A stretch of DNA of 56,969 nucleotides from a virus: positions 1-56,969 of the IMG/VR virus record IMGVR_UViG_3300048838_000199. One strand, written 5' to 3'. Shown here piece after piece: positions 26,655 to 44,545 of this stretch. How positions within the stretch are numbered: the stretch's first letter is position 1; each line of letters begins with the position of its first letter. Below the pieces are notes generated by a model, which saw nothing but the letters and a program-made list of their open reading frames with translations, made no database searches and had not been told where the DNA came from. Both the position numbers and the translations under genes were made by a program.

Positions 26655-27017
26655 TTACTGCAGGCCGTGGACTTCCACGACGTCGTACTGGCCACGCAGG
26701 AACATCTGCCGATCGCGCTGGCAGCCGTCGCACACCAGGACGGTGTGGCACCTGGCACCGATGTATGTGGCTGCGTCGCTGTACGCTACCAGCTCGGTCG
26801 TGGCGTCCTCGATCTGGCACACCTCGCAGCAGTCGGGTACCTTGGGTGCGCACTGGCACTGCAGCCAGCACAGGCCGGCCAGGGCACCCGCGCCCGCCAG
26901 GTACCACCACCCTGCTGGGTCGTTGGGTTCAGTGGCGAAGGCCGCCAACATCAGCACCAACGCGCCAGCGAACGACAGCACGGCAGCCCGTGCGAACCAG
27001 ATGCGCGCGCTGTTCAT
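26655..27017 (-). CDS. Small membrane protein with cysteine-rich C-terminal domain
   Basis: 120 residues. Two N-terminal membrane segments: AAVLSFAGALVLMLAAFA (about 11-28) and WWYLAGAGALAGLCWL (about 37-52). A Cys-rich part follows (CQCAPKVPDCCEVCQIED, later CHTVLVCDGCQRD), a likely zinc site on one side of the membrane. The ATG overlaps the previous stop (ATGA). Function unknown; an inner-membrane exclusion role is one possibility. Confidence 0.65.
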   Translation of the reverse strand: MNSARIWFARAAVLSFAGALVLMLAAFATEPNDPAGWWYLAGAGALAGLCWLQCQCAPKVPDCCEVCQIEDATTELVAYSDAATYIGARCHTVLVCDGCQRDRQMFLRGQYDVVEVHGLQ

Positions 27018-27454
27018 CGGTCGCCACCAGGCCCTTCCAGAACGCCGGCCACAGCCGCCTCTTCTGGGTCGTAAGGCTTCACCACCAGGCTGGTGCCTTC
27101 CAGCAGCTCGGGCCGGCCCTGCACAGCCGCGAACAGCGCAGCGCGTGCGTCCTCGATGAACTCAAACGCAGCCCACTCGGTAGTCAGCCACCCCTCTGCG
27201 TTCATGCTTACACCGTGTGGGTGGGAATCCACCAGCACCAGGAACTGGGCCAGCGCGATGGCCATGGCCGAGTTCTGCGCGTCGTGCTTCTGCTTCCTGG
27301 CCAGCGTGGGGCCAGGCTGCCCGGTGCCGCTGCACTGCTGGCTGCCCGACTGGTGGGGCATCATCTTGCCGGTGGCGTCCACCGTGGCCTTGCGATGGCA
27401 CACGGGGCACCGTTCCTGCTGGCCTGGTATCTGCCGCATGTATGGCTGCCTCAC
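27014..27454 (-). CDS. Zinc-ribbon hypothetical protein
   Basis: 146 residues from a GTG at 27454 overlapping the GHKL gene stop (GTGA). N-terminal site QERCPVCHRKATVD with MMPHQ and QQCSG resembles a CxxC-H-C finger. The C-terminal half (AMAIALAQFLVLVDSHP, then WAAFEFIEDARAALFAAV) is helical. It is coupled to the GHKL-HExxH gene and may work with it, which is inference only. Confidence 0.6.
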   Translation of the reverse strand: MRQPYMRQIPGQQERCPVCHRKATVDATGKMMPHQSGSQQCSGTGQPGPTLARKQKHDAQNSAMAIALAQFLVLVDSHPHGVSMNAEGWLTTEWAAFEFIEDARAALFAAVQGRPELLEGTSLVVKPYDPEEAAVAGVLEGPGGDR

Positions 27455-28716
27455 TTGGACACCCCCAACACCGCCATGCCCAGCCGCCCGGCAATACCGT
27501 CCAGGGCATTCTCGAACGACAGGCTGGCATCGTGCGCGCCACTCATGAAGTGGGCCAGCTCGTGCAGGTACGTGCGCACCAGTTCCTGCTTGTTGCCTTC
27601 CAGGAACAGCTGGGCCGACAGCCACAGCACCATGTCGTCCAGGGCAGCCAGGCCCTTCAGTTCATCGGCCCGCACCTCGAATACCCGCACCGTCACCTTG
27701 GGGGCTGCGATGATCTTGTCCAGCTTGCGCAGCTCGGCCAGCTGCTTCCTGTACTTGCCGATCGGCAGGGCCTTCAGGTCGTACTGCGTGCTGGACACCG
27801 TGGCCGACGACGGCACGCCGGCCTTCAGCAGCGCACCGCGCAGGTCCCTGCTGTCCACTACCACCGGGGTGTATCCCTTGCGCGCTGCCACCTGGTCCAC
27901 TTCGCCGCCCATGGCCACCACCGCACGGTCGCCGTGCTTGTCCTCGAATGCCTGGGCCAGCGATTCCTTCAGCTGGTTGTCGACGTGGTAATCGCCGCAT
28001 GCGTCGGCCTCGATCGTTTCAGCGTGGCACAGCAGCTGCCTGGCGATGTCCACCGTGGCGTTGTCGCGCAGCCACTTGCCGATGGCCCAACCGACTTCAA
28101 ACTCTGACACCGTGGCCCTGTCCCTGTTCAGCGTCACACCTTCGCCGCTGATGTTCCAGTCCCAGATGGCCGTGCCCTTCATGGTCGTGATGTACACACC
28201 CTGAATGTAGACGCGCATGCCCTCTGCCTCTGCCCTCGGCATCGGCCCGATGGGGCACGCCGGCAGGATCCTGCCTTCCAACGCCCTGGCCACGTCCTGC
28301 ATGACCACGCTGGCCGTGAACCCTTCGCCGTTCTGTTCCTTGGTCACCTTGGCGTGCAGTGTTTCGGTGCCCATCACCTTCCTGAACAGGAACTCGATGG
28401 TGCTGTCTGGTGTGCGCAGCACGATCGTGCCGCCGGCACGGGTGGCTGCCAGTGCTGCCATCTTCGCGCCTTCACCGAACTGGCCGATGGTGGGGCCGCC
28501 TGGCCGCTTGGTGCCGTGGCCGACGATCAGCAGCTCGGCCAGCTCGGGCACCGTGTTCGTGCTGATGGTGATGGTGTCGCTGCCCTCGGCCTCGATGCGC
28601 ATGCCCTCGGGGTCTGCGTCGATGGCGTTGCATGCCAGTTCTCGTGCCACTTCCCACGCGCCCCAGTTGGGCACGTACGTCGGGGCCAGGTTCAGGTTGA
28701 TGTACTTGGGTTTCAT
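27451..28716 (-). CDS. GHKL ATPase with C-terminal HExxH metallopeptidase-like motif
   Basis: 421 residues from the ATG at 28716, with CGAGGAAA 8 nt upstream. The Bergerat ATP-binding fold is seen as WEVARELACNAIDAD (N-box E-N-x-x-D, about 22-35) and GHGTKRPGGPTIGQFGEG (G-boxes, about 66-84), then GTIVLRTPDSTIEFLF. The last 60 residues hold YLHELAHFMSGAHDAS (HExxH near 385), a zinc-protease motif. No transducer domain of topoisomerase type is obvious. It is two genes downstream of a Topo VI-A-like protein. ATP-driven substrate remodelling or proteolysis is possible. Confidence 0.75.
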   Translation of the reverse strand: MKPKYINLNLAPTYVPNWGAWEVARELACNAIDADPEGMRIEAEGSDTITISTNTVPELAELLIVGHGTKRPGGPTIGQFGEGAKMAALAATRAGGTIVLRTPDSTIEFLFRKVMGTETLHAKVTKEQNGEGFTASVVMQDVARALEGRILPACPIGPMPRAEAEGMRVYIQGVYITTMKGTAIWDWNISGEGVTLNRDRATVSEFEVGWAIGKWLRDNATVDIARQLLCHAETIEADACGDYHVDNQLKESLAQAFEDKHGDRAVVAMGGEVDQVAARKGYTPVVVDSRDLRGALLKAGVPSSATVSSTQYDLKALPIGKYRKQLAELRKLDKIIAAPKVTVRVFEVRADELKGLAALDDMVLWLSAQLFLEGNKQELVRTYLHELAHFMSGAHDASLSFENALDGIAGRLGMAVLGVSK

Positions 28717-28758
28717 GTTGTGGTTTCCTCGGTTCTGCGTCGTGGGCCGCGCCCCCAT

Positions 28759-29109
28759 TTACAGGGACACCGCCAGGCCGGTCACGGACTCGATCGTGCT
28801 GCGCAGCTGGTCTGCATACAGCCCGTCCAGTTCCTCGATGATGCGCACGTCCATGCCGCGAACCTTTAGGAAGGTCATGGTGTACGTGTCGCTGGGGTTC
28901 AGCGTCACCTTGATGATGCTTACCCGTCGGCAGCCCTTGATTCTGAAGCGAAGGAACGGGCCAGCCCCTTCCTTGGTGTCCAGCCCATACACGAACTCGT
29001 GCGCGCCGATCATGGCGCAGGCTTGTCTGCCGATCTGCTGCACTCTGATGGTTTCAGCGATCTGCTGCAGCTCAAAATCCGAATAGTGGCGTGGTGTTGT
29101 GGTTGCCAT
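28759..29109 (-). CDS. Conserved small phage protein, unknown
   Basis: 116 residues from the ATG at 29109 (MATTTPRHYSD), with TATAAC 6 nt upstream. The pattern ACAMIGAHEFVYG, then FLRFRIKG, then VSIIKVTLNPSDTYTMTFLK and GLYADQLRSTIESVTGL belongs to a small family common in phages and plasmids, with no known function. It lies between the TOPRIM and GHKL genes but has its own promoter. Confidence 0.75.
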   Translation of the reverse strand: MATTTPRHYSDFELQQIAETIRVQQIGRQACAMIGAHEFVYGLDTKEGAGPFLRFRIKGCRRVSIIKVTLNPSDTYTMTFLKVRGMDVRIIEELDGLYADQLRSTIESVTGLAVSL

Positions 29110-29115
29110 GTCAGT

Positions 29116-29145
29116 GTTATACCACAGCGTGCTGCATGATGCAAT
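29116..29145 (-). promoter_or_regulatory. Leaderless promoter with operator (site S5)
   Basis: TTGCAT, 17-bp spacer CATGCAGCACGCTGTGG, TATAAC (29116-29121), 6 nt to the ATG at 29109. Confidence 0.7.
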
Positions 29146-29154
29146 ACCAAAACG

Positions 29155-29188
29155 CAAAATAATCAGGGGCCGGTTCACCCAGCCCCTG
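29155..29188 (-). terminator. Intrinsic terminator
   Basis: Arms CAGGGGC/GCCCCTG (29164-29170 and 29182-29188), followed on the minus strand by ATTATTTTGCGTTTT. It lies after the TOPRIM gene and before promoter S5. Confidence 0.75.
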
Positions 29189-29199
29189 CGTCGTCGGCC

Positions 29200-30285
29200 T
29201 TAGTCGTCGGCCTTGTTGGGGTCGTCGTACACGTGGGCACAGTTCTGGCATTCCAGCTGGCCGGCCTCGGTGTACTGGACGCGCCGGCTGCCGCAGCTCG
29301 GGCACCCTGGCAGGTCCAACATGCCCACGAAGTCGCTGTCGTGCTTCATCAGGTCCACAATCGCGCCTATGCGCCCACGGTGCTGGTCTTGCTCGGCCAC
29401 GGCCTCGTGCCATAGGTCCATGTCCAGCTCGCGCTTGATTCCATCCTCGGCCAGCTGCGCCAGTACCCTCGGTTCCAGCGCGTCCAGCTCCCAGGATTCG
29501 CGCCCGTACCGCCTGATGTAGCCGCCGGCCCTGCTGTCGGTGATCTTGGCCGGGTTGGGTGGTGGGGCATACTGCTGAATCTGCGCCATGGTCAGTGCCA
29601 TGTGCCGCACGGTCAGCTTGTCGTTGCCGTCGTCGTCGGTTTCGTTGTAGCTGTACACCTTCTGGTCGCCCTTGTCGTATTCGCCCAGCTCGGTGAACAG
29701 CAGCAGCCGGTCCTCCACGTCGCGCACCATGTCGATGCCGCTGGGGTCGTGGTCGCCAAAGTACAGAATCACCACGCGCTTGTCGCTGTCCAGGGCATCA
29801 CGCAGCCGCTGGCCGTTCTCGTACATGGCCGACGCGCTGGAATACCCACGGTTGGAAGTGAAGGGCACGTCCCACCGCCTGCAGACGGGTTCCAAGACAC
29901 CCTCCAGGGCCGCCTTTTCCACCATCACCTCGACATGCACCGGCTGCCTGTCCCACAGTCGAATGCGGAACTGCTTGGCGCATGCCGCCACGATGTCTGC
30001 CGGGCTGTCCCAATGGGGGTTCTCGATCGTTTCACGGTTTCGGTCCTCGATCAGGTCCCAGTCGACCAGGCCGGCCAACCTCGCATCGGTCAGCAGGCTG
30101 CCGATGTTCTTGTACGACGTTTCCTTGTTGGGCAGGCCGTGGTGCGCCACCAGCTGGTAATAAACCTGCCGCAGGGATAGCCGGTACCCCTGCGCTGCAT
30201 AGCTGGTGCATATCTCGATGATCTTGCGCACCCACTTCAGGCTGTCAGGCTTGAAGTCCTTCTCGATGTAACAGTGCTTTGCCAT
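29200..30285 (-). CDS. Spo11/Topo VI-A-like protein with TOPRIM domain and zinc ribbon
   Basis: 361 residues. The N-terminal winged-helix part has LSLRQVYYQLV (Arg39, Tyr42, Tyr43), the R-x-x-Y-Y arrangement in which Spo11 and Topo VI-A carry the DNA-cleaving tyrosine. The TOPRIM domain has HVEVMVEKAALEGVL (Glu123) and VVILYFGDHDPSGIDM (Asp178, Asp180), the metal-binding E and DxD. The last 35 residues form a zinc ribbon (CPSCGSRRV, then CQNCAHVY). Small Topo VI-A homologues are known on mobile elements. It starts right after the stop of the previous gene. Activity would be DNA cleavage or relaxation. Confidence 0.7.
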   Translation of the reverse strand: MAKHCYIEKDFKPDSLKWVRKIIEICTSYAAQGYRLSLRQVYYQLVAHHGLPNKETSYKNIGSLLTDARLAGLVDWDLIEDRNRETIENPHWDSPADIVAACAKQFRIRLWDRQPVHVEVMVEKAALEGVLEPVCRRWDVPFTSNRGYSSASAMYENGQRLRDALDSDKRVVILYFGDHDPSGIDMVRDVEDRLLLFTELGEYDKGDQKVYSYNETDDDGNDKLTVRHMALTMAQIQQYAPPPNPAKITDSRAGGYIRRYGRESWELDALEPRVLAQLAEDGIKRELDMDLWHEAVAEQDQHRGRIGAIVDLMKHDSDFVGMLDLPGCPSCGSRRVQYTEAGQLECQNCAHVYDDPNKADD

Positions 30286-31302: not shown

Positions 31303-31330
31303 ATTATACACAACATGCTGCACGATGCAA
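31303..31330 (-). promoter_or_regulatory. Leaderless promoter with operator (site S6)
   Basis: TTGCAT, 16-bp spacer CGTGCAGCATGTTGTG, TATAAT (31303-31308), 7 nt to the ATG at 31295. The upstream TTTTGGTATTGCATCGTGC block matches S2 and S4. Confidence 0.7.
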
Positions 31331-38055: not shown

Positions 38056-38084
38056 AGTATAGCGCATCATGCAGCACGGTGTGG
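38056..38084 (-). promoter_or_regulatory. Leaderless promoter with operator (site S8)
   Basis: -10 TATACT (38056-38061), 8 nt before the ATG at 38047. The spacer holds CGTGCTGCATGATGC. The -35 position reads CCACAC instead of TTGCAT. Confidence 0.55.
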
Positions 38085-44538: not shown

Positions 44539-44545
44539 GCCCGTT

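Follow-up and report, generated by a model that had tools for sequence, protein, structure and literature searches.

What is the function of a phage protein that joins an ATPase domain of the GHKL superfamily to a tail with a zinc-protease motif? The question is raised by the protein P0001, encoded in the IMG/VR virus record IMGVR_UViG_3300048838_000199; the whole stretch of 56,969 bases, of which one strand was read, is called the window here. PHROG matches to a tape measure protein, major head protein, terminase large subunit, thymidylate synthase, replication initiation protein and endolysin mark the window as a tailed phage. The P0001 gene lies near a gene for a Topo VI-A-like protein of the mini-A type (P0002), and a first-pass annotation had considered three roles, namely a divergent Topo VI subunit B, an independent ATP-driven protease, and part of a module with a third, zinc-ribbon gene. 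Of these roles, the evidence speaks most for an independent ATP-driven protease, with putative protease activity, since ATPase and minigluzincin are kept together across divergent phages. We propose with moderate confidence that P0001 works on its own, as a phage enzyme that fuses a GHKL ATPase of the Hsp90/MutL type and a transducer-like segment to a C-terminal minigluzincin protease, with an ATP-driven clamp serving the protease. The proposal takes together the domain order of P0001, its N-box, lid and HExxH motifs, all of them intact, the confidence of the predicted fold, the deep conservation of the fusion and the absence of a consistent association with mini-A; from these we infer ATP hydrolysis, dimerisation, zinc binding, proteolysis, coupling between the domains and the nature of the target.

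Domain architecture of P0001

The gene and its parts were placed as follows.

27451..28716, minus strand: predicted GHKL-minigluzincin coding sequence, 421 amino acids from the ATG at 28716; PHROG 6077, E 2.7e-37
28279..28707, minus strand: GHKL ATPase domain, residues ~18-160 (AlphaFold2 model, column counts, Foldseek), with N-box E40/N44/D47 and lid GQFGEGAK
28027..28248, minus strand: transducer-like beta/alpha segment, residues ~171-244, with invariant R212-D213-R214 (AlphaFold2 model and column counts; putative S5/transducer fold)
27466..27762, minus strand: predicted C-terminal minigluzincin (zincin) domain, residues ~333-431 (AlphaFold2 of the domain alone, Foldseek, profile matches)
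27550..27564, minus strand: putative HELAH zinc-binding and catalytic motif, residues 399-403 (sequence and homolog alignment)

The open frame runs on the minus strand from an ATG at 28758 down to 27451 (435 amino acids), and an internal ATG at 28716, with GAGGAA just before it, gives the 421-residue form used in the first-pass annotation, whose coordinates hold on this strand with either 28716 or 28758 as the start. Residues are numbered here in the 435-residue form, in which the match to the functionally uncharacterised family PHROG 6077 covers residues 18-309.

The homolog set was made of 80 loci from viral contigs, obtained by a search with the family alignment, and of phage records; searches for related loci with single proteins returned none, so that alignments were needed. 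In 61 aligned members, E40, D47, G92, G95-E96-G97, K99 and R212-D213-R214 were invariant and N44 was kept in 60. P0001 thus combines a significant profile match with the N-box Glu/Asn and the GxxGxG lid of the GHKL superfamily, and the GHKL identity proposed earlier is confirmed by an N-box and a GxFGEGxK lid that are invariant or nearly so. Direct sequence searches of solved structures with single proteins gave no match, and profile searches gave weak ones. AlphaFold2 with the family alignment modelled the whole of P0001 with a mean pLDDT (predicted local distance difference test) of 92.5 and a pTM (predicted template modelling score) of 0.80, in the order GHKL domain (~18-160), beta/alpha segment (~171-244), mixed linker region and C-terminal domain (333-431). 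By Foldseek, the ATPase part was matched to HtpG/Hsp90, Topo VI-B, MORC4 and Topo II, with template modelling (TM) scores that were low, 0.2-0.35 over the full length. Hsp90/HtpG and the MORC ATPases, which are among its best solved-structure matches, have to our knowledge no intrinsic protease domain, unlike P0001.

The beta/alpha segment with its RDR motif is probably the transducer, as suggested by its position, its conservation and the Foldseek matches of the model. The earlier description of a protein that ends in a protease motif instead of a visible transducer should be revised here, since a transducer-like segment follows the GHKL domain, in the place that the transducer takes in other GHKL ATPases, and the zincin is added after it; the tail therefore does not replace the transducer.

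The HExxH motif reported for the tail was found as HELAH at residues 399-403, near the C-terminus. Folded alone by AlphaFold2 with 24 homologous tails, the domain reached a pLDDT of 94.8 and a pTM of 0.88, and the predicted layout, three strands after a first helix, then the HELAH helix and a closing helix, is that of the minigluzincins and zincins. Foldseek placed proabylysin, jannalysin, selecase and yeast Wss1 at the top and Spartan lower (best E 3e-4, TM-scores ~0.5-0.64). In the sequence profile search of the tail, Wss1, Spartan, MJ1213 and proabylysin were among the top matches, with E-values of 0.015-0.3 that are below significance. The Pfam gathering cut-offs were likewise not reached by P0001, with 17.7 against 26 bits for WLM (PF08325) and 12 against 25.6 bits for SprT-like (PF10263). 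Wss1 and Spartan are classed as minigluzincins (PMC4559962), and by its predicted fold the P0001 tail is a minigluzincin as well.

Conservation of the fusion and a permuted sister family

A HExxH motif lay within the last 75 residues in 23 of the 88 sampled homologs, compared with a mean of 0.2 and a maximum of 3 after shuffling. A chance origin of the motif was ruled out by this shuffling and by the conservation in homologs. On a tree of the ATPase core, which is unrooted, four changes between tailed and untailed forms were counted, against 20.6 with shuffled labels, and the tailed form may be ancestral. Full-length relatives of P0001 include AYP68649 of the Exiguobacterium phage vB_EalM-132 (Herelleviridae), which ends in a HETIH motif; it is only 25-26% identical to P0001, is annotated as hypothetical and differs in the region of the third zinc ligand. 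The top match of P0001 in BFVD, a protein of 437 amino acids with a TM-score of 0.75, is probably this same protein. In the same database, A0A3Q8Q6V3 of the archaeal Sulfolobales Beppu filamentous phage 1 (595 amino acids, annotated as a putative structural protein) was also a strong structural match (E 1.6e-13). The GHKL-plus-transducer core is common to P0001 and the members of PHROG 6077, such as ORF34 of Pseudomonas phage Ab18, Seunavirus EC152 and the 'histidine kinase-like ATPase' of Vibrio phage 1.122; unlike P0001, most of the sampled members are ~343-400 amino acids long and are without the C-terminal protease domain.

A scan of genome contigs gave at least one locus among the matches listed. 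Outside phages, the Aneurinibacillus megaplasmid protein WP_272443548 (L180:1-6250, NZ_CP116888.1) has three GHKL-transducer modules in a row, two of them full and one partial, and one C-terminal HEQVH tail. The first module lacks its start in the annotated coding sequence; this N-terminal part is encoded upstream, and a gene for a group II intron reverse transcriptase stands between the two. These tandem modules fit a mechanism with paired GHKL modules. In addition, GHKL proteins of a different type, with a KGKAFAVFELIQNGWD-like start, were seen near GHKL-zincin genes at L076:10426-11943 and L195:5668-7119; some phages therefore carry two kinds of GHKL protein.

Furthermore, a profile search of mini-A loci found a second, related GHKL family, first as a gene beside mini-A in the locus L173. 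Its members, placed by profile matches, are given below.

L173:9442-10857: permuted GHKL family member
L184, L185 and L194-L271: further members
L186:3998-5176: ORF071 of Yuavirus M6

YuA gp29 and a protein of a Synechococcus phage also belong to this family. The profile matches are ordered lid region, N-box, transducer, and in every one of the 66 frames where both motifs were placed, the lid came before the N-box, so that the GHKL domain of the sister family is apparently circularly permuted. Its tail is zincin-like, with EExxH in 59 of the 83 frames scanned.

Several findings weigh against our proposal. L011, second among the homologs by closeness (36% identity), has lost the motif and carries LNLAD where P0001 has HELAH, another homolog (L061) has EELAH in the motif position, and most of the GHKL family, the short class, is without the tail, so that proteolysis is no core activity of the GHKL family. 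As candidates for the third zinc ligand, D410 after HExxH is nearly invariant but its spacing varies, and five residues beyond it, positions 415/416 are either H-V or F-E. The adenine-contacting aspartate of the DxGxG motif is absent in most members, position 67 in our own reading of the motif register being S, N or T in 57 of the 61 members (T in P0001) and D in four; ATP binding itself is accordingly putative. The loss in L011, the change in L061 and the EExxH of most permuted sisters would also fit a tail that is a pseudo-enzyme or a binding module, with the ATPase as the working part. We regard this as improbable, since a purely structural role would not demand that HExxH be strictly kept, as it is in 23 sampled members of diverse lineages.

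The neighbouring genes and the topoisomerase question

The genes and signals around P0001 bear on the alternative that had been the main idea of the first-pass annotation, a divergent Topo VI-B subunit that works with the adjacent mini-A protein.

29200..30285, minus strand: Topo VI-A-like, mini-A type TOPRIM gene P0002; PHROG 6247 'DNA topoisomerase', E 2e-106, with conserved RQxYYQ, EK and GDHDPSGID
29164..29188, minus strand: terminator-like hairpin with a T-rich tail after mini-A (sequence scan)
29114..29148, minus strand: promoter-like repeat TTGCAT-17-TATAAC, lying after mini-A and before the GHKL unit (putative promoter)
28759..29109, minus strand: gene that opens the apparent GHKL transcription unit, matched to PHROG 9437 (unknown function), with its start codon a short way past the -10-like hexamer
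27014..27454, minus strand: overlapping downstream open reading frame with one CPVC pair and no family match; GTG start in a GTGA overlap with the GHKL stop

P0002 belongs with mini-A and the type IIB topoisomerase A subunits by its PHROG 6247 match, its RQxYYQ motif and its TOPRIM motifs EK and GDHDPSGID, which are common to its relatives; a profile search of solved structures with P0002 did not find Topo VI-A. A zinc-ribbon-like tail, CPSC...CQNC, was seen at its C-terminal end (29221-29304, minus strand, residues ~328-355) and is absent from the eight aligned relatives. The A-like gene is indeed about 500 bases away, 484 bases upstream of the GHKL gene on the same strand. This short distance, and the presence of Topo VI-B among the Foldseek matches of the GHKL part, speak for a shared topoisomerase.

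Against it, mini-A was found in none of 50 whole records carrying the GHKL family of P0001 and in none of 80 flanks, and the family of P0001 was found in none of 50 mini-A records. In a second set of 36 mini-A records, the GHKL family was present only as the permuted relative, in one record. The Topo VI-B transducer profile (Topo-VIb_trans, PF09239) matched none of the 61 homologs and no reading frame in the window, whereas it did match four archaeal controls. A review puts Mini-A in one group with Topo VIII, whose members are mostly homodimers, and names no B subunit as a separate partner of Mini-A (PMC8185306). P0001 thus shares the GHKL fold with subunit B of Topo VI but differs from it in the missing PF09239 domain, in the protease tail and in the lack of a link between the relatives within its own family and an A subunit.

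Terminator-like and promoter-like sites also lie between the two genes. Terminator-like sites in the region were not enriched over shuffles, and the hairpin is thus supporting rather than decisive. The promoter-like element, TTTTGGTATTGCATC(A/G)TGC(A/T)GCAC..GTGGTATAA, has minus-strand copies near 31330, 29144, 26590, 20517 and 19100 and weaker copies at 44539 and, on the plus strand, at 38062; at four copies, an ATGG..ACCACAAC start follows a few bases beyond the -10-like hexamer. This suggests a set of near-leaderless phage promoters with an overlapping palindrome. With the two kinds of site between them, mini-A and the GHKL gene stand in apparently separate transcription units.

The only linkage to mini-A was met in the permuted sister family, where mini-A was present in 6 of 50 records (L184, L185, L195, L196, L200 and L270). 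In the twins L184/L185, in L196 and in L200, mini-A is followed at a distance of ~0.2-0.6 kb by the permuted GHKL-EExxH gene, an arrangement that favours a joint role; in L195 this gene lies further away, and in the more distant L270 a helicase-like gene stands between. Five of these six records form one clade (58-100% identity to L173), and mini-A is absent from several long members of that clade, from M6 and from the Synechococcus phage. Given the shared ancestry, the comparison of 6/50 with 0/50 for the family of P0001 is suggestive, not strong. We read the proximity as a recurrent co-location in early or replication modules, in which a functional relation is possible. For the family of P0001, a two-part topoisomerase is ruled against by the negative co-occurrence at the level of records and flanks, and we consider a divergent Topo VI-B subunit very unlikely. 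The mini-A neighbour P0002 is probably outside the GHKL-protease machine.

The proposed three-gene module found no support either. The overlap of the 27014-27454 gene with the GHKL stop (GTGA) is as described before, but its identification as a zinc ribbon is not sustained, as no zinc-ribbon profile matched it (tested as the containing open reading frame of 203 amino acids); and no homolog of it was found beside any related GHKL gene.

Proposed mechanism and relation to known systems

In the GHKL superfamily, as in Hsp90, MutL and type II topoisomerases, ATP closes a dimer clamp and hydrolysis reopens it. By analogy, ATP binding would make P0001 dimerise through its GHKL domains, and hydrolysis would open the clamp again. 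Such opening and closing may trap a target protein, which could be bound to DNA, and the clamp would present the trapped protein to the fused zinc protease or unblock the protease. P0001 is most likely an ATP-gated protease that would act in the early or replication programme of the phage, independently of the neighbouring mini-A. In the nearest relatives (L010/L011), the neighbours are genes for UvrD, SNF2 and DnaB/RepA-type ATPases; a role in or near DNA replication is therefore favoured, and DNA-bound proteins are a leading candidate target. Beyond generic helicases, no conserved gene partner was found in the neighbourhoods of the homologs.

These neighbours also favour a more specific role, the clearing of DNA-protein crosslinks, in which the GHKL clamp would close round DNA, as in MutL, MORC and type II topoisomerases, and the Wss1/Spartan-like tail would digest stuck proteins, possibly trapped mini-A adducts. 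The tail fold matches Wss1 and Spartan, whose family has DNA-bound proteins, Top1 adducts among them, as its substrates (PMC4559962), and in the window, as in one clade of the permuted family, mini-A adjoins the GHKL gene. However, no DNA-binding element was identified in P0001, the minigluzincin fold is also present in proteases with other targets, and mini-A is absent from nearly all carriers, so that we consider this role unlikely, if conceivable.

The closest described kinds are the RIIA-like phage GHKL proteins with variable C-termini and the minigluzincins of the Wss1/SprT type. Wss1, Spartan/SprT and abylysin/selecase share with P0001 the fold of the C-terminal 110 residues and the HExxH motif, but no fusion of them to a GHKL ATPase was found in the literature searched, and P0001 stays below the WLM and SprT-like cut-offs. 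RIIA orthologs have an N-terminal GHKL domain and highly variable C-terminal domains (PMC7824862), and T4 RIIA resembles P0001 in these two features; the text of that source names no zincin among the C-termini. This comparison favours a role in conflict, namely that of a counter-defence or host-takeover effector. P0001 would then be an RIIA-like GHKL protein that uses its variable C-terminal domain, in this case a protease, to cut a defence or regulatory protein of the host. Among the structural matches in BFVD, the family itself is followed by RIIA proteins, some family members are annotated as RIIA, and the tail is patchily distributed and has been lost. On the other hand, T4 RIIA has 725 amino acids and is matched by PHROG RIIA profiles (612, 2979, 3661 and others) that P0001 misses, and the hhalign comparison of the two (probability 33%) is limited to part of the GHKL domain. 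The PADLOC defence models matched neither P0001 nor P0002 and gave weak matches to the GHKL region of TmtA in two relatives only. We consider such an effector doubtful as well.

The stand-alone clamp and protease remains our preferred explanation. Neither a GHKL-zincin fusion nor a circularly permuted GHKL domain was found to be described in the literature searched, which covered the running text of papers mostly from outside the subscription journals. The ATP-dependent proteases known to us all use AAA+ motors. We tentatively raise the possibility that the family is a new class of ATP-dependent protease, with a GHKL clamp and a minigluzincin in place of an AAA+ ring, widespread in phages and with tandem and permuted versions. 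If this is true, ATP would be spent on proteolysis in another manner than by AAA+ motors, through a GHKL clamp coupled to the protease, and the phage family offers many small members (~420 amino acids) of diverse sequence. It would also assign an activity to part of a large phage family of 'unknown function', with an architecture related to RIIA.

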